Source: Thermoplasmata archaeon (GTDB lineage Archaea; Thermoplasmatota; Thermoplasmata; Thermoplasmatales; Thermoplasmataceae). From it: a stretch of 60,717 bases of DNA. Both the position numbers and the translations under genes were made by a program. The notes below the pieces were generated by a model that was not told the origin of the DNA, did not search any database, and was given only the letters and a program-made list of their open reading frames with translations. Below, in pieces: positions 23,886 to 32,963 of the stretch (positions are counted from its first letter, which is position 1; each line of letters opens with the position of its first letter). The stretch lies in the NCBI GenBank assembly GCA_021802055.1, contig JAKAAY010000002.1, forward strand, positions 31,478 through 92,194. The letters run 5' to 3'.

Positions 23886-26195
23886 CTATAGCGTGCACTT
23901 ACCATCCGGGCATGCCGGATCGAACGTCGAGTCAAGTTTGACCATGTTGTCTGATCCCGTGTTCAGGACAAGTTTTATAACTGCATCATTGGACTGCTCC
24001 CTCTTGGCGGACGATCCGTTGCCTGTGGTCAGAACCTGGACTCCCTTACTCTTGTCCCTGTAAACGGTGATCCCCTTGCAATTCAGATCCCATGCCATCC
24101 TGTAAGCATCCTCGATGTCCTTGACCGCGGCATCCTCGGGAAGGTTGATGGTCTTGGAAACTCCTGAGTCACAGAACCTCTGGAATGTGGCCTGCATCAT
24201 CACATGCCATTGAGGTTCTATCTCGTGTGCAGTTACGTAAACTCTCTTCATGTCCTCAGGGAGATCCAGGTCCGCGAGATTGCCTTTTTCTGCAATGGCT
24301 CTCACTAGCTCGTCTGAGTAAAGAGACCTCTTCTTCAACTCCTTCTCCAGCTCCCTGTTCACTTCCAGAAGTTCCTGGCCGTCAAGAACATGCCTGACGT
24401 ATGCCAGCGCATAAAACGGTTCTATGGATGAGGAGCAGTCTGCTATTATGGATATGGTGCCGGTCGGGGCGATGGTCGTCGTGGTGGAGTTTCTCATCAT
24501 CAGCCCCTGCCTTTCCCACAGTGAACCGTGCCATCCGGGGAAATTGCCTCTTTCCTTCGCAAGCCTGGAAGATTCGTTGTGTGAAGTCTCGTTCAGGAAT
24601 TTCATTACTTTTTCAGCAGTTTCCAGAGCTTCCCTGCTCTGGTAGCTGATGCCAAGCTGCGCAAGCATGTCCGCGAATCCCATATATCCCAGGCCGATTT
24701 TCCTGGTTGTCCTGGTTACCTTTCTGATCTCGTCTATTGGAAAATTGTTTGCATCGATGACGTCATCCAGGAACCTGGTGGACAGCCTTATTGTTTCCTC
24801 CAGAGAGTCGAAATCTATCTTCTGGTTCGAGACGAATTTTGCCAGGTTGACGGAGCCCAGGTTGCATGATTCATGCGGCAGCAGCGGCTGCTCTCCGCAT
24901 GGGTTTGTCGCCTCTATCTGGCCCAGATGAGGAACGGTATTCTTCTCATTCATCTTGTCCACAAAAATCAGTCCGGGATCGCCGGTCTTCCAGGCCTGGT
25001 TGATTATGGACTCCCATATGGCCATCGCCCTGATCCGCTTCATCACGCGCCCGTCTCTTGGATTCTTCAGGTCAACATAATCATCTGAATCGAGCCTGGA
25101 GAAGAAATCTGCATCCAGAGCCACAGAAATATTGAAATTCTTGAGTTTCGTGTTTGCTGAGTCCTTGCTCAGGATGAAGTCCATTATGTCAGGATGATCG
25201 TATCGAAGTATGCCCATGTTGGCCCCTCTCCTCTTGCCTCCCTGCTTGATTACATCCGTCGTTGTGTCGAATATGGTCATGAAAGAAAGAGGTCCTGATG
25301 CAACACCGCTTGTGGAACCAACGATATCCTCCTTTGGCCTTAGCCTTGAGAATGAAAAACCCGTTCCGCCGCCGGATTTGTGGATTATGGCTGTATCCTT
25401 CAGTGCGTTGAAGATGGAATCAATGCTGTCTTCCACAGGGAGGACAAAGCAAGCAGAAAGCTGTCCTATGGAAGTCCCTGCGTTCATGAGTGTGGGAGAG
25501 TTCGGTATGAACTTCAGATCCCTCATCAGGTTTTCGAATTTTTCCATATAGTCCCTGACAGATTTGCTTTCCGTGCTTATAAAATCCAGAACATCCTGAA
25601 AGTCGCCATCTATTGTGCCCTCTTCCTTCAGATAGGTGAAGGCCCTCCTGAGCATGCTAAGTTCCATCTGGGACATGGGGTGCACATTCTTCTTCCTGAA
25701 ATCGCCTGTGCCTTTCTGCCTGTATTCGTAAATGCCTTCAATGAGCGCTACCGTCCGTGCCACCCTGTGCAGCATCTGGCTGGGAGTCTCAATCACCCTT
25801 CCGTTTTGGTCCTTCAGGAGATATCTGGATTCCAGCACTTTCACTGAGTTGAGGGATAGTTTGAGGTCATCCTGTACTCCCATCCTCAACTTCTCCTGCC
25901 TTATGGTCTTCCTTCTATCCCTGTATAGAATGTATGCCCTTGCCACATCAGAGTAGTTTTCGCCGTCGATGATTGCCTTCATCAGGGCCTGCTCTACACT
26001 GTCCTGGATTTCCTCTATGTTTACCTGCTTTTTCTTAGTGGCGTTGGTGTCTGATACAACCATGTCAGTGATCTTCTCGGCTGCCTCCATAGAACCATGC
26101 TTCACGGAGAGCATGGCCTTGTAGATGGCCGTGGTGATTCTTTCCCGGTCAAATGCCTGTTTGCTTCCGTCTCTCTTGATAACGTATTCTGCCAT
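23886..26195 (-). CDS. nrdJ: Ribonucleotide reductase, class II (adenosylcobalamin-dependent)
   Basis: The 769-residue enzyme starts at ATG 26195 (TTG 26201 is two codons earlier). An N-terminal ATP cone (residues about 3-95, KRDGSKQAFDRERITTAIYK) precedes the catalytic barrel. Visible active-site elements: LSACFVLPVEDS (first redox Cys), NPCGEQPLLPHESCNLGSVN (Asn/Cys/Glu radical site plus redox Cys), APTGTISIIADCSSSIEP and the C-terminal redox pair CPDGKC. It reduces ribonucleotides without needing oxygen, using coenzyme B12. It lies 131 nt downstream of a complete class I system, an unusual juxtaposition. Confidence 0.94.
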   Translation of the reverse strand: MAEYVIKRDGSKQAFDRERITTAIYKAMLSVKHGSMEAAEKITDMVVSDTNATKKKQVNIEEIQDSVEQALMKAIIDGENYSDVARAYILYRDRRKTIRQEKLRMGVQDDLKLSLNSVKVLESRYLLKDQNGRVIETPSQMLHRVARTVALIEGIYEYRQKGTGDFRKKNVHPMSQMELSMLRRAFTYLKEEGTIDGDFQDVLDFISTESKSVRDYMEKFENLMRDLKFIPNSPTLMNAGTSIGQLSACFVLPVEDSIDSIFNALKDTAIIHKSGGGTGFSFSRLRPKEDIVGSTSGVASGPLSFMTIFDTTTDVIKQGGKRRGANMGILRYDHPDIMDFILSKDSANTKLKNFNISVALDADFFSRLDSDDYVDLKNPRDGRVMKRIRAMAIWESIINQAWKTGDPGLIFVDKMNEKNTVPHLGQIEATNPCGEQPLLPHESCNLGSVNLAKFVSNQKIDFDSLEETIRLSTRFLDDVIDANNFPIDEIRKVTRTTRKIGLGYMGFADMLAQLGISYQSREALETAEKVMKFLNETSHNESSRLAKERGNFPGWHGSLWERQGLMMRNSTTTTIAPTGTISIIADCSSSIEPFYALAYVRHVLDGQELLEVNRELEKELKKRSLYSDELVRAIAEKGNLADLDLPEDMKRVYVTAHEIEPQWHVMMQATFQRFCDSGVSKTINLPEDAAVKDIEDAYRMAWDLNCKGITVYRDKSKGVQVLTTGNGSSAKREQSNDAVIKLVLNTGSDNMVKLDSTFDPACPDGKCTL

Positions 26196-26325
26196 TGACA
26201 AGTATGTATAGGTCCGGGAATACTAAAGTTTTGCCTAATGGCTGATTTACTGGCTCCGCTGCTGTCTCTGGCTTCCGCTATGGTTTGCCAGAAGTGAATA
26301 TTGGCCCCCGGTGAACTTCACTGCT

Positions 26326-27378
26326 TCAGTTCTTGCCTGGTGGCTTGAGTCTGTTGAGGTTCATGATCCCCCCCAGCTTCTGGTAGTTGGTCACCTTCCT
26401 TTCAAAAAAGTCTGTCTTTGTGGAGTTCATTGAAGCAAACGAGTCCACCCACTGCATGGGATGAGCCGAAACCTCAGGGTAAGGCTTGGGAAGGCCGATT
26501 GCTTCGCACCTGCTGTTTGCCAGATATTTTATGTACTTATCGATGAGTGTGTCGTTCAGTCCCAGAATCTGATTCCTGGTGACGTACTGCCCCCACTGAA
26601 TCTCATGCGTTGTAGCAGTCCTGACCATGTCCAGAAGGTCCCGGTTCATTTCAGGCGTGAACCATCCCGGGTTCTCGTCCCGAAGCGCATTAATGATGTT
26701 GGTGAACAGGGCAAGGTGTGTATTCTCGTCTCTCTGTATAAGCCTGATCATGCTAACAGTGCCGCCCATTTTATCCTGTCTTCCCAGGGCATAGAAGAAC
26801 GCAAAGCCGCTGTAAAAATAAATTCCCTCCAAGAGGTAGTCAGCCATGCAGGAATAGACGAAGTTCACGTCGTTTGGCCTGTTGATGAACTCCTCGTAGA
26901 GATCAGTTATGAACCTGTTTCTCTTTGCGAGTATCTCGTCGTCCTTCCACATGGAGTAGACAGCGTCTCTTGTGACCTGATCTACCACTGAAGTGAGCAG
27001 GTAGTCGTAGCTCTGCGCGTGAATGGTCTCGAAGAATGCCTGCGCCTTCAGGCATGCAGTAACTTCCGGTGCCGTGATATATGATGCTATTGCCCCGAGA
27101 TTGTCAATCTGTATGCTGTCCAGAAAGATCAGGAAGGACAGGACTTTCTTGTATGCTTCCTGCTCGTACGGAGTCAGGGTGGGATACTGCTTTTTGTCCT
27201 CTCCCAGGGGGATCTCATCGGGGATCCAGAAGAAGCTGCGCATCTTCTTATATAGAGGTTCAGCCCATGCATATTTGCAGTGGTTGAATTCAAGGAGGTT
27301 AGTGGAAGGGCCTCCCACCATACGCTGCAAGGAAAGATCCCTTGTGCCTTCCGGATTGAACAGTTTCTTGACTTCCAT
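26326..27378 (-). CDS. nrdB: Class I ribonucleotide reductase beta subunit (R2)
   Basis: The protein is a complete radical-generating R2. All six metal ligands can be placed: Asp in LIFLDSIQID, Glu and His in FFETIHAQSY, Glu in YLLEGIYFYSG, and Glu and His in LIQRDENTHL. The radical Tyr follows the first His in AQSY, and the radical-transfer Trp is in SFFWIPDE. ATG 27378 has GAGG eight bases before it; ATG 27384 is two codons earlier. The upstream nrdA stop is 5-11 nt away, so both are cotranscribed. It is about 350 residues, the normal length. Confidence 0.94.
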   Translation of the reverse strand: MEVKKLFNPEGTRDLSLQRMVGGPSTNLLEFNHCKYAWAEPLYKKMRSFFWIPDEIPLGEDKKQYPTLTPYEQEAYKKVLSFLIFLDSIQIDNLGAIASYITAPEVTACLKAQAFFETIHAQSYDYLLTSVVDQVTRDAVYSMWKDDEILAKRNRFITDLYEEFINRPNDVNFVYSCMADYLLEGIYFYSGFAFFYALGRQDKMGGTVSMIRLIQRDENTHLALFTNIINALRDENPGWFTPEMNRDLLDMVRTATTHEIQWGQYVTRNQILGLNDTLIDKYIKYLANSRCEAIGLPKPYPEVSAHPMQWVDSFASMNSTKTDFFERKVTNYQKLGGIMNLNRLKPPGKN

Positions 27379-27388
27379 ACTCATCGCC

Positions 27389-30028
27389 TCACGCCTGGCA
27401 TGCCTCGCACGCAGGTTCTTCCTTCTCCTCTTCAATGGTGTAGTTCCTGAAGTAGTAGATGGTCTTGACGCCAAGCTTCCACGCAGCATGATACAACTCC
27501 AGGAACTTCTGCTCATCCATATCAGCCGTGGCATAGAGATTCATTGACTGTGACTGATCCAGGTGCCTCTGTCTGGCGGCCGCGGCCCTAATACTCCACA
27601 TCTGGTCGATTTTGTGGGCTCCCTTGTACAGGGAAATATTATTCTCCGTCAGTTCCGGAGCTACCTGCCTTATCACAAACCCCTTTTTCTCCTCGGTAAA
27701 GACAGGCTTGAAAATCGGGTCAATGCCAGCGGTTGAGCCCGCTATGACTGATGTAGACCCGGTTGGTGCAATGGCCATCAGGTATCCATTCCTGATTCCT
27801 CTCTCATGTACCTTTGCTGCGAGGTCTTTCCACCTCTGGCTGTTGTAGTCGCGCTTCTTGAAGTAACTTCCTGTGTCCCAGTCACTGCCCTTGAACAGTG
27901 GGTATGCCCCTCTTTCCCTTGCCAGTTCCATGCTAGTCTCTATTGCAAGGTAATTGATCTCCTCAAACAGCTTGTCAGCGTATTCCACATGCTCCTCTGA
28001 CTCCCAGTCAATCCCCTTCTTTACCAGATGCTGATGATAGCCTGATATGCCAATCCCTATTGCCCTGTACCTCTGGTTTGTCCTCTTTGCCTGCTCAAGA
28101 GGCAGGTTATTCATGATTATCACATCATCAAGCATCCTGACCTGAACGGGGATGACCTTCGCAAGTTTCTCAAAAGTATCCGTTCTGCCAAGGTTTATTG
28201 ACGAGAGATTGCAGACAACCAGATCACCGGCCCTGTACCGGCGAGTGATTCTGTCCTCCTCAATAGTCTCTGATATTTTGGTGGTGGGAGACTGGTTCTG
28301 GCAGATCTCCGTACACAGATTGGAGGAGTATATCACGCCTGCGTGACTGTTTGGGTTTGCCCGGTTAACCGTGTCCCTGTTGAATATAAACGGGCCCCCT
28401 GTCTCATAGAGGCTCTTCAACACGAGTCCCATGAGTTCAAGAGAATCAACCTCTTTCTTCTCTATGGCGGGGTCCTGCACGCATTCCATGTATTTCTTGG
28501 TGAATTCTTCGCCCCAGTGGTCTTCCAGTGACCATCCCTTCTTCAGGCGAACCTCGTTGGGATCGAACAGGTACCAGGTGTCCCCCTTTTCCATGGTCTC
28601 GTAGAATATGTCAGGAATACATATCCCCGGAAATATGTCGTGCGCCTTTCTCCGGTCATCTCCGTTGTTCGTTTTAAGATCCAGGAAATCCAGAATGTCC
28701 CTGTGCCAGATGTCAAGCCATATGCTTGCGGCTCCGGCTCTCTGGCCCAGCTGGTTCACTGAGACGGCTGTATCATTGAACAGTCTCACCCACGGCACTA
28801 TTCCGCTTCCGGCTCCCTTGTAACCCCTGATGGTGCTGCCAAGTGCCCTTAACTTGCCGATATATACGCCCATGCCCCCTCCGTTCTGGGATACCTTTGC
28901 GAAGGTCGTAATGCCATCAAATATTCCTTGAAGCGAGTCCTCAGGAGTGTCGATGAAGCACGAACTCAGCTGACCTCCTGGTTTTCTTGCATTTGCGAAG
29001 GTGGGTGTTGCCATTGTGATCATCAGGTTTGAAAGCACATCATAAAACTTCTTGGCCCAAGAAATCCGCTCCTCCGGTTTCTCTGCAAGTGCAAGATACG
29101 CTGCTATGCCCATGAAGACTTCCTGGGGAAGCTCCATCACCTCATTGTCTGGCCCCCTGATCGCGTATCTGTCACTCAGGTGTTTGAGACCCGGATAGTT
29201 AAGCAGAAGATCTCTCTCCGGCCTGATATATGAGCCCAGCTCCTCCATGTCTGGAGGTGAATATTCTTTCAGTAGTGCTCCATCCATGCGGCCTATTTCC
29301 ACCAGTCTCTTCACCAGGTCGTGGTAGCTGCCGTATTCCCTGTCAGAATAATGCCTGGACTTTCCGGCCTCCTGATAAAGATCATGAAGCAACAGCCTGG
29401 CCGCAGCATAAGTCCAGTTTGGCTGCTTGGTTGAAGTCTTCTCATTCGCAACCCTGATAAGTGTTTCCTGAATGGCGCGGGTAGATATTCCCTCGTAGAA
29501 ATGCAGCTGGGAGTCCAGTTCAAGTTCCACTGGATCGACTCCTTCAAGGTTCTGGCAGGCTTTCTCAACCACTTTCCTGATCTTGGTTATGTCGATGGGA
29601 ACGCGCTGCCCGTGCCTGTTAGTTACGGTGGAAGGCCGGAGCCTCAGTTCTATTGGAGGTTTCTCTTCCATCATATATCTCTGGTTACCAGAACCTGAGG
29701 ACTGGAGCGTTTCCTCGATTCTGCGCTTCTCCTCCCTTATCCTCTTCCTGTTGTCCCTATAGAGAATATAGGCTTCTGCGACGTCGTTGAAGCTTTTGCC
29801 CCCGAGCGTTTCGTTCATAAGAGTGTCTATGACGAGATCCTGAACCTGCTCTACACTGGGCCTTGTCCCAAAGGCCTCGAGTTTGTTAATGCATATTTCA
29901 CATATCTGTTCTGCGTCCTCAAGGTTGCCATTCTTCACGGCAAGCATCGCCTTGAATATGGCCTCTGTAATCTTCCTTTTCTGGAATGGTACTATGTTTC
30001 CATTGCGTTTGGTTATTTCTCTGATCAT
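27389..30028 (-). CDS. nrdA: Class I ribonucleotide reductase alpha subunit, two ATP cones
   Basis: This 879-residue alpha subunit carries the active site. Cys residues are in GGQLSSCFID, SSNLCTEICQN (the Asn-Cys-Glu site) and GDLVVCNLSSINL. The radical-transfer tyrosines are in VKTIYYFRN and the C-terminal redox pair is CEAC. Two ATP cones precede it. The inner one (about residues 133-225, VTNRHGQRVPIDITKIRKVV) aligns with the single cone of E. coli NrdA. The outer one (residues 1-100) instead resembles the cone of the neighbouring NrdJ (FNDVAEAYILYRDNRKRIRE against YSDVARAYILYRDRRKTIRQ). ATG 30028. Confidence 0.95.
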   Translation of the reverse strand: MIREITKRNGNIVPFQKRKITEAIFKAMLAVKNGNLEDAEQICEICINKLEAFGTRPSVEQVQDLVIDTLMNETLGGKSFNDVAEAYILYRDNRKRIREEKRRIEETLQSSGSGNQRYMMEEKPPIELRLRPSTVTNRHGQRVPIDITKIRKVVEKACQNLEGVDPVELELDSQLHFYEGISTRAIQETLIRVANEKTSTKQPNWTYAAARLLLHDLYQEAGKSRHYSDREYGSYHDLVKRLVEIGRMDGALLKEYSPPDMEELGSYIRPERDLLLNYPGLKHLSDRYAIRGPDNEVMELPQEVFMGIAAYLALAEKPEERISWAKKFYDVLSNLMITMATPTFANARKPGGQLSSCFIDTPEDSLQGIFDGITTFAKVSQNGGGMGVYIGKLRALGSTIRGYKGAGSGIVPWVRLFNDTAVSVNQLGQRAGAASIWLDIWHRDILDFLDLKTNNGDDRRKAHDIFPGICIPDIFYETMEKGDTWYLFDPNEVRLKKGWSLEDHWGEEFTKKYMECVQDPAIEKKEVDSLELMGLVLKSLYETGGPFIFNRDTVNRANPNSHAGVIYSSNLCTEICQNQSPTTKISETIEEDRITRRYRAGDLVVCNLSSINLGRTDTFEKLAKVIPVQVRMLDDVIIMNNLPLEQAKRTNQRYRAIGIGISGYHQHLVKKGIDWESEEHVEYADKLFEEINYLAIETSMELARERGAYPLFKGSDWDTGSYFKKRDYNSQRWKDLAAKVHERGIRNGYLMAIAPTGSTSVIAGSTAGIDPIFKPVFTEEKKGFVIRQVAPELTENNISLYKGAHKIDQMWSIRAAAARQRHLDQSQSMNLYATADMDEQKFLELYHAAWKLGVKTIYYFRNYTIEEEKEEPACEACQA

Positions 30029-30285
30029 TGTCTAATCCCTCCAGGCGAGCGTAACCCCATCATCTTCTATTTCAGTGATTAGGTTTTTTTGAACCCGGGT
30101 TTTAGCGGGGATATTCAAGGTATGGTAAGGGCCATAGTAACAATCATGGTAAAAATATTTGATCATGGGAAGTAACAATTCTATCTGGTATATAAGGAAT
30201 ATTTAGCAAGTCCCAACAAATAGGACATAAAAACAACGTACGATGTCTAAAAAAGCGGATCTTTTCAGAATAAGCTGTAAAGGAA

Positions 30286-31287
30286 TTACTTCCTTACCTC
30301 GGTGAATGTGTCAAACCAGGGGATGGGGCTCATGGTTATCCCCGGGAATATTGTGTCAAGGGCACACGTCTTGCTTATCCTGTTGCACAGGGACTGTGAG
30401 AACCGGGTAATCATGACTTCGGAGAGCCCAGGAATCATTGCTTCGGAAACGTAGTGGATAAAGTCCGTTTCCACCTTTACTAGTTCTCTTACCAGTTCCA
30501 CTGATTCTTTCTTCGCTTCTGGAGTACCAAGAGGTTGGTTTTCTATTACGAGGGCCTTTATCAGGCTCTGCAGAAATTCCGATTGGACGAACAGATCCCT
30601 CTGAATGAACTTGAGGGCGTTGGAGGTCCCCACAACCTTGGAGTGTCTTGCAAGTGCATATATTACGGTGAATTCTGTTGGTACAGTTGTGCCGGATATC
30701 GTGGCTGAGATCAAAAGGTTCCTGTACATTTCCCACAGCTGCTGGTCTTTCTGGAACTTGCCCAGTTGTTCGACATAAAGAGCGCTTTTCTGCTTGATCT
30801 GGTCAACAGATCTCCATGACTCTGAGACAGATTCCCTGCGACTTTCAGGAACCGCACTGTTAATAATCTGGGAATAGGTATCACAGTGCTCAACAAGCTG
30901 ATATTCCATTGTGGCCATTACGGCTGCGATATCCGGAGATGAAAAATAAGGTGCTATATCGTGTAAATTCGACTGGAGAATGCTCTCAAGGATCATTGAA
31001 GAAAGTATGGTCCTCTCGTACACTTTTCTCTCGACGTCGGAGAGAGATGCATAGTCCTTGTTTTCCTTTGTGAGGTTGAACTGCTGGGGGTTGAAGAAGT
31101 TTCCAGTCATTTTCCTATAATAATCCATGGCCCACGGGAAACCTCCCATGGTAAAGTTTAGTATACGTGTGGATATGCCGCCCACCAGCCTGGGTTTGGA
31201 AGATAGTTTCTCGCCCTCTGCGTTGAATAGCGTTGTTCTGGTAAGCCTGTTTCCTTTCTGTAGTCCCTGATTTCCAGCTTCGGTCAT
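30286..31287 (-). CDS. R2-like ribonucleotide reductase homologue lacking metal ligands
   Basis: The 333 residues (ATG 31287; GTG 31326 also in frame) align with NrdB from LFNAEGEKLSSKPRLVGG to the QRD region. The ligand positions are: Asp to Glu (ILESIL), first Glu to Leu and first His kept (QLVEHCDTY), second Glu to Ser, third Glu to Leu and second His to Gln (FIQRDLFVQSEF). The Tyr at the radical position is kept, but the radical-transfer Trp is Asn (NFFNPQQ) and there is no C-terminal Tyr. It cannot be a standard di-metal R2. It is the first gene of the cluster, 257 nt upstream of nrdA. A regulatory or structural role is inferred. Confidence 0.8.
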   Translation of the reverse strand: MTEAGNQGLQKGNRLTRTTLFNAEGEKLSSKPRLVGGISTRILNFTMGGFPWAMDYYRKMTGNFFNPQQFNLTKENKDYASLSDVERKVYERTILSSMILESILQSNLHDIAPYFSSPDIAAVMATMEYQLVEHCDTYSQIINSAVPESRRESVSESWRSVDQIKQKSALYVEQLGKFQKDQQLWEMYRNLLISATISGTTVPTEFTVIYALARHSKVVGTSNALKFIQRDLFVQSEFLQSLIKALVIENQPLGTPEAKKESVELVRELVKVETDFIHYVSEAMIPGLSEVMITRFSQSLCNRISKTCALDTIFPGITMSPIPWFDTFTEVRK

Positions 31288-31445
31288 TGTATCACGTTTG
31301 CAGCGATAAGCACTTTCTGCTTTCACCGCGATAGCCCATGGTTATTTAATAATTGATTGGGAGATATTACTGTTTGGGCTCATGCTCTCATTTGGGGCTT
31401 CAGCATTATGGAGTAAGATTATTACGCCACACAGAATCAGTGAAT

Positions 31446-32963
31446 ATGAAACTGGTGGAGTGCGTTCCCAATTTCAGCAACGGGCGCGACAGAAGCATCG
31501 TTGACAGCATAGTCCAGAGCATTGCATCCGTAAGTCAGGTCAGGATTCTGAACGTGGAGATGGACGCGAGCCATAACCGATCCGTGGTGTCCTTTGCGGC
31601 TCCTCCCGATTCTGCAGTGGAAGCTGCATTCGCTGGAATCAAAACTGCAACGGACCTGATTGACATGACAAGGCACACTGGTGAACACCCGAGATTTGGA
31701 TCTGCAGACGTAATACCGTTCATTCCGCTATCAGGCAGCACACTGGAGGAGTGCTCGGCGCTTGCACACAGACTTGGAAAAAGAGTGGGCGAGGAGTTGG
31801 GTGTACCCGTCTACATGTATGGTGAAGCCGCGGTTTCAGGCTCAAGAAAGAACCTGGAAGACATACGCAACAAGAATTTTCAGTTTGAACAGTTGCGAGA
31901 AAGCATTACTGCACCACAGTGGAAACCTGATTATGGACCTGCTTCACTGGGTCGCCAGGGAGCTTCCATTATAGGCTCCAGGGACTTTCTCATAGCCTAC
32001 AATGTGAACCTGAATACACAGGATCTGGCCATAGGCAAGAAAATTGCAAAGGCACTTAGGGCCAGGGACGGGGGACTAACCTTTGTCAAGGCCCTGGCGT
32101 TCTTTCTTGAGGACAAGAAATGCGTCCAGATCTCAATGAACCTTACCAACTACAGGAAGACTCCAATATACCGTGCCTTCGAGATGGTCTCTCTTGAGGC
32201 TTCCCGGTATGGACTTGTCCCCTTCGAATCAGAGATCGTGGGGCTGGTTCCCATGGAAGCAATGGAGGAAACCGGGAAATTTTACCTCAGGCTCAATGGA
32301 TTCTCCAGCGATCAGATTCTGGAAAACAAGCTTTTTGTGGGAACGCGTGGGACCGAAGATGACTTTATGGAAAGGCTTGCGAGCGCTTCTCCAACTCCCG
32401 GCGGAGGATCGGCCTCTGCGCATGTGGGTGCGATAGCTGCTGCCCTCGATTCAATGGTCGCTTCACTGACTGTGGGCAAGAAGAAATACATCGAGTATCA
32501 GGAGGAGATGACACACATCGCTGAGAGAAGCAGAAAAATACTTTCTACGTTAAGCAGATACTCCATTGAAGATGAGGAGGCCTTTTCCCAACTCGCAGCA
32601 GTTTGGAAAATGCCAAAGAATACGGAGGAAGAGATCAGGACCAGGGATGCTGCAATGGAACGTGCTCTAAACCGCAACATTGAGTCCCCCTGGAACATAG
32701 CTAGAGCGTCGTACGAGACCATAGAACTGGCCGAAAAACTGGTCAAGTACGGCAACAGGAACGCTATAACTGATGCTGCTTGTGCAACTCTTTTTGGGAT
32801 GGGTGCAATAAAAGGGGCACTTTTCAATGTGCTCATAAACCTGAAGTCCATGAAAGATAAGGTGCGCGTGGAACAGGAGAAGATAAAGATCAAATTATTT
32901 ATCGAGCAGGCGCAGACTGTGCACGACAGGACTCTAAAAATAATAAATGGGGAATTATGGTAA
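31446..32963 (+). CDS. Glutamate formiminotransferase / formiminotetrahydrofolate cyclodeaminase fusion
   Basis: This 505-residue fusion starts at ATG 31446 (MKLVECVPNFSNGRDRSIV); the open frame begins 31 codons earlier without family resemblance. Residues 1 to about 300 are the formiminotransferase, with DASHNRSVVSFAAPPD, HTGEHPRFGSADVIPF and ISMNLTNYRKTPIYRAFE. Residues about 310-500 are the cyclodeaminase, with ASASPTPGGGSASAHVGAI. It transfers the formimino group from formiminoglutamate to tetrahydrofolate and then releases ammonia. This is the end of histidine degradation started by HutU at 20 kb. Confidence 0.94.
   Translation: MKLVECVPNFSNGRDRSIVDSIVQSIASVSQVRILNVEMDASHNRSVVSFAAPPDSAVEAAFAGIKTATDLIDMTRHTGEHPRFGSADVIPFIPLSGSTLEECSALAHRLGKRVGEELGVPVYMYGEAAVSGSRKNLEDIRNKNFQFEQLRESITAPQWKPDYGPASLGRQGASIIGSRDFLIAYNVNLNTQDLAIGKKIAKALRARDGGLTFVKALAFFLEDKKCVQISMNLTNYRKTPIYRAFEMVSLEASRYGLVPFESEIVGLVPMEAMEETGKFYLRLNGFSSDQILENKLFVGTRGTEDDFMERLASASPTPGGGSASAHVGAIAAALDSMVASLTVGKKKYIEYQEEMTHIAERSRKILSTLSRYSIEDEEAFSQLAAVWKMPKNTEEEIRTRDAAMERALNRNIESPWNIARASYETIELAEKLVKYGNRNAITDAACATLFGMGAIKGALFNVLINLKSMKDKVRVEQEKIKIKLFIEQAQTVHDRTLKIINGELW

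Follow-up and report, generated by a model that had tools for sequence, protein, structure and literature searches.

Within the 60,717-nucleotide stretch of Thermoplasmata archaeon DNA analysed here (hereafter, the window), one gene of a class I reductase cluster encodes R2L (R2-like paralogue), which we find to be a conserved, tail-less and catalytically dead R2 paralogue that had been under-described in an earlier first-pass annotation. R2L is a 333-residue open reading frame on the reverse strand (30286-31287), with its ATG at 31287 and a start methionine that is invariant in the family alignment. Its description as an R2 paralogue without the canonical metal site and C-terminal tail rests on its match to Pfam PF00268, its predicted fold, its ligand positions and its dN/dS values.

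Fold, metal ligands and radical path of R2L

R2L aligns with the neighbouring NrdB without gaps over 312 residues (27% identity, E 8e-46) and matches the Pfam family PF00268 (Ribonuc_red_sm) with 138 bits, compared to 267 bits for NrdB. The AlphaFold model of R2L (pLDDT 84.8, pTM 0.88) adopts the R2 fold, and its top matches in the PDB are the R2 proteins of Aquifex (7ail), which is the nearest, and Clostridium botulinum (6zjk); the TM-score against 7ail is 0.86-0.90, as expected of the class I R2 fold. The AlphaFold model of NrdB was left out, as it was too poor (pLDDT 58.8). Thus the gene does encode a second R2-like protein, as that first-pass annotation, made from the sequence, had claimed, and it is full-length; the structure prediction that the annotation had proposed as a check supports this at the level of the fold.

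The same ungapped alignment was used to number equivalent positions in NrdB, R2L and the Escherichia coli protein (given in brackets). All six ligand readings of the first-pass annotation proved correct: Asp89 is replaced by Glu101 (D84; 30985-30987, reverse strand, as are all codons given here), Glu119 by Leu131 (E115, a bridging ligand; 30895-30897), Glu186 by Ser198 (E204; 30694-30696), Glu220 by Leu232 (E238) and His223 by Gln235 (H241), while His122 is kept as His134 (H118; 30886-30888). Asp219 is likewise kept, as Asp231 (D237), and lies with Leu232 and Gln235 at 30583-30597. Window R2L is therefore identical to class I R2 proteins at only one of the six ligand positions, His118; the D84 position holds a Glu, and E115, E204, E238 and H241 are all replaced. 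The annotation had also called for a search for homologues with matching substitutions, and the losses do recur across 18 copies of R2L: the E238 ligand is gone in all of them, E204 in 17 and E115 in 14, with a Glu at the latter position only in the four copies of genus g8. The D84 position is Glu in 17 of the 18 copies and Thr in the remaining one (genome G050), and the H241 position is variously Gln, His or Asn. The equivalents of H118 and D237 are invariant in all 18 copies, the His also in NrdB. Because purifying selection acts on the 18 homologues that share these losses (see below), chance is excluded as their explanation.

The radical path was examined in the same way. The radical-site Tyr (Tyr126 in NrdB, E. 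coli Y122) does remain in window R2L as Tyr138, as had been noted, but it is not a conserved remnant, since the position is Leu in all six g18 copies. The radical-transfer Trp had been read as Asn, which is incorrect: Trp53 of NrdB (E. coli W48) aligns with Phe65, and Asn66 is the next residue. Among the 17 R2L sequences that cover this position, 16 have Phe, Tyr or Trp and one has Ser, showing that an aromatic residue is usually kept there. The reported absence of the C-terminal Tyr was borne out, although it understated the loss: R2L stops where the NrdB tail STKTDFFERKVTNYQK starts, so that the whole tail is gone in 18 of 18 homologues, and with it the relay Tyr and the peptide for NrdA docking that class I R2 proteins carry there. 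The tail Tyr is kept by every characterised class I R2 (PMC8463856), and R2L therefore cannot supply a radical by the known route. Taken together, R2L has neither a canonical dimetal site nor a radical relay, in agreement with the original claim that its metal site and radical pathway had been lost.

Distribution of R2L and its association with class I reductase

Searching the window's Thermoplasmata family (77 genomes) identified 18 copies of R2L in 17 genomes and five genera, the other copies being 31-77% identical to that of the window, and a single-sequence query of genome contigs returned one close relative in a Thermoplasmata archaeon metagenome-assembled genome (contig JAKAFX010000009.1). 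No R2L outside the window's family emerged when profiles were run against 117 genomes from the order and a sample of 390 from across the phylum. The remaining profile hits resembled NrdB; of these, the ones inspected (L076, and L083 onward) mostly carried ordinary ligand motifs, with two cut short or differing at the searched motif. Because L076, assigned to a genome of another family of the order (G115), and G069 encode identical NrdB proteins, the L076 contig is probably a contaminant and does not represent a class I reductase of that other family. A scan of viral contigs recovered no R2L relative; phage and plasmid matches to R2L reached at most about 27% identity, and the matches listed were annotated as ordinary R2 or as hypothetical, or were unannotated. 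Two nearly identical R2L genes (L036 in G038, contig C31; L035 in G045, contig C56) come from bins of two genera; one is therefore probably a binning contaminant, which casts doubt on the second R2L copy of G038.

NrdB is present in 15 of the 17 genomes with R2L, and both exceptions are bins of 76-77% completeness; the co-occurrence is significant (p = 5e-10, Fisher's exact test, uncorrected for kinship). Conversely, R2L is found in 15 of the 20 NrdB-bearing genomes of the family and is absent from the four of genus g6 and from G056; it is also absent in genus g14. The five NrdAB genomes without R2L show that it is accessory, not obligatory, and that NrdB can do without it in g6 and G056. The occurrence of R2L is thus linked to that of class I reductase, without being obligatory.

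In 16 of the 18 copies, R2L lies directly upstream of nrdA, usually followed by nrdB and, in some genera, by nrdJ. The contig of G045 ends just beyond R2L, while in G075 the 2.2 kb downstream of R2L contain no nrdA, and the bin as a whole (76% complete) yielded no nrdA match at all. The window itself holds the full cluster on the reverse strand: NrdA, the class I catalytic subunit, with ATP-cone matches, the catalytic Cys and the YY pair (27389-30028); NrdB, a canonical R2 with the six ligands, radical Tyr, Trp and C-terminal tail all present (26326-27384); and NrdJ, a class II B12-dependent reductase (23886-26201). On the forward strand, a divergent gene encodes an FtcD/FchA-like folate enzyme (31353-32963); such a gene adjoins R2L in several, indeed most, genera, usually divergently, and adjoins nrdA in G056, where R2L is absent. 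A possible TATA-like element, CCTTATATACC (30187-30197, reverse strand), was tentatively identified by eye between R2L and nrdA. It suggests that nrdA may have its own promoter, and R2L and nrdA may thus have separate ones.

The cluster varies in several further respects. A conserved leader precedes nrdA in genus g18 (L045-L048, L050), reading AACTTATAT... and then AACATTGAAAA[CA]GTTACAAACATTTGC, and is a possible promoter or regulatory element. The NrdA proteins of this genus (L045-L050) are about 750 residues long, compared to 879 in the window, and may therefore be missing an N-terminal ATP cone. The nrdJ gene of G046 (L034:6467-9781), a congener of the window's archaeon, encodes 1105 residues, compared to 771 in the window, and contains an intein with a LAGLIDADG domain (matches to Intein_splicing and LAGLIDADG_3); that of G020, a frame of 1138 residues, may also carry one. 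Finally, in G050 an IS605 OrfB/TnpB-like gene (L039:5413-6684) lies between R2L and nrdA.

Comparison with other R2 proteins and rival explanations

In a tree, R2L and NrdB form separate, well-supported groups, the R2L branch being long, and R2L scores best against NrdBh-type R2 proteins, not eukaryotic ones. The NrdBh-type R2 proteins of C. botulinum (6zjk) and Aquifex aeolicus (7ail) are nearest to R2L by both sequence and fold; the C. botulinum protein provided the first structure of an NrdBh, and the reductase of Aquifex belongs to the matching NrdAh subclass (PMC8772380). In contrast to R2L, NrdBh-type proteins have kept the dimetal site and the tail. R2 proteins that resemble R2L in missing radical-centre residues are known from eukaryotes. 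Saccharomyces cerevisiae Rnr4 (Y4, the class Ia beta-prime) is, like R2L, an R2 paralogue without diiron-centre residues that occurs alongside a canonical R2 (PMC3824934). Similarly, Plasmodium PfR4, one of the apicomplexan R2_e2 proteins, belongs to a clade-specific, long-branch R2 group that, as with R2L, seems to lack the radical-producing residues; it interacts with PfR2 and R1, and both yeast Rnr4 and PfR4 join alpha2-beta-beta-prime complexes (PMC3824934). There are also differences. R2L lacks the whole C-terminal tail and is non-obligatory across its family, and the alpha2-beta-beta-prime pairing is a property of Rnr4 that we only infer for R2L; in R2_e2 proteins most functional residues remain, as does a C-terminal motif that is strongly conserved, whereas R2L has neither the tail nor most of the ligand carboxylates. 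By sequence, the nearest relatives of R2L appear to be NrdBh-type R2 proteins, and its origin is apparently independent of that of Rnr4. By analogy, R2L plausibly works like Rnr4 and PfR4.

Several other explanations were weighed. The idea of R2L as a decaying nrdB duplicate has almost nothing to recommend it: its amino acids do evolve faster (in close pairs, dN is several-fold higher for R2L than for NrdB) and it is absent in g6 and g14, but all copies are open, with one (G072) cut by a contig end, dN/dS in close pairs is only 0.02-0.06, and the copies share their length, their end point and 30 invariant columns over five genera. The low dN/dS and the 18 intact copies rule out a pseudogene. 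An active radical R2, whether of the metal-free class Ie or of some other unusual cofactor type, is also very improbable. In its favour, window R2L retains the radical-site Tyr and, as in class Ie, has other residues in place of metal-ligand Glu. However, class Ie proteins are derived from class Ib, have three ligand Glu residues changed to QSK or VPK, need NrdI and form a DOPA radical (PMC11846895), whereas the corresponding residues are Leu, Ser and Leu in window R2L and varied in its relatives, with no Lys, and no match to NrdI (PF07972) was found in the window's genome (96% complete, 42 contigs). Furthermore, the radical-site Tyr is lost in g18, as described above, and the relay Tyr and tail found in all characterised class I R2 proteins (PMC8463856) are missing from every R2L. 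R2L thus shows none of the sequence marks of class Ie and has neither the relay Tyr nor the tail, which rules out this class and upholds the distinction from class Ie that the first-pass annotation had drawn. R2lox proteins also have the R2 fold without the radical-relay tail. They differ from R2L in keeping the full set of metal ligands, and this assignment was rejected, as no NCBIfam R2lox model was among the R2L matches.

Two other readings are less easily set aside, though both are unlikely. R2L might regulate NrdA or the NrdAB holoenzyme from outside the R2 dimer, for example as a homodimeric decoy in inhibited alpha-beta rings. Its position next to nrdA, the strong conservation of residues 282-331 and of the N-terminal arm, which are the best-conserved parts of R2L, and the dATP-inhibited alpha4-beta4 complexes formed by reductases of its nearest subclass (PMC8772380) all speak for such a role. 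Against this, the tail that docks on NrdA is absent in every copy, making the usual tail-mediated grip on NrdA impossible, so that the usual direct docking by R2L is improbable and NrdB is the likelier partner. It is similarly doubtful that R2L is an independent R2-fold sensor or enzyme, in which a rebuilt site of Glu101, His134, Asp231 and Glu205 would bind a single metal or small ligand. Glu205 (30673-30675) is an acid specific to this family, Glu or Asp in 18 of 18 copies and Gly in NrdB, and its helical phase places it on the inner face of helix E, a face that is the most remodelled part of R2L (cross-family identity 8%). The other three residues of the putative site are shared by 17 or all 18 copies, even though E238 is lost throughout. 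However, Glu101 is Thr in G050, the His134-Asp231 pair may be structural, as ordinary R2 proteins do not use D237 to bind metal, and the position beside nrdA points to ribonucleotide reductase. A composite of these ideas seems more speculative still, namely that the core rebuilt on Glu or Asp205 with Glu101, His134 and Asp231 might bind a single metal or small ligand and use it in signal sensing to control the class I reductase encoded alongside.

A possible beta-prime subunit of class I reductase

The regulatory, scaffold or new function originally suggested for R2L can be narrowed, in that a protein that is dead, selected and linked to nrdA is best read as a scaffold or regulator. In particular, by analogy to Rnr4 and PfR4, the leading candidate role for R2L is that of a catalytically dead beta-prime that would pair with NrdB as a scaffold, chaperone or brake. 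It would then act as the second R2 subunit of the class I reductase encoded alongside it, dimerising, as other R2 subunits do, via the helix B/C surface and joining NrdB in a heterodimer with a single tail, that of NrdB. As a scaffold or chaperone, R2L could aid the folding and metal loading of NrdB, as has been proposed for yeast Rnr4. As a brake, it could leave less of the fully active NrdB dimer, which has two tails, at times when little class I activity is wanted, such as when the B12-dependent NrdJ is operating.

The dimer interface of a class Id R2 is formed by helices B and C (PMC6754362). R2L and NrdB have residues in common in the N-terminal arm and the B-C turn (LFN..G, S102, N107, Y114 and P118), while on the outward faces of helices B and C, a helical-face proxy for the interface, their conservation is no better than elsewhere. 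Additionally, the NrdB proteins of genomes with and without R2L show no marked change, with five columns distinguishing g6 compared to 1 to 11 in control clades, giving no signal of NrdB changes tied to the absence of R2L.

In the open-licence papers searched, we found no description of a dead R2 partner in archaea or bacteria. Yeast and apicomplexans have such partners; what precisely they do there is still debated or untested. R2L constitutes a stable archaeal family that accompanies a normal NrdAB, is naturally missing from some relatives and has a form with no tail, and would thereby offer a simple comparative system for the function of beta-prime subunits.
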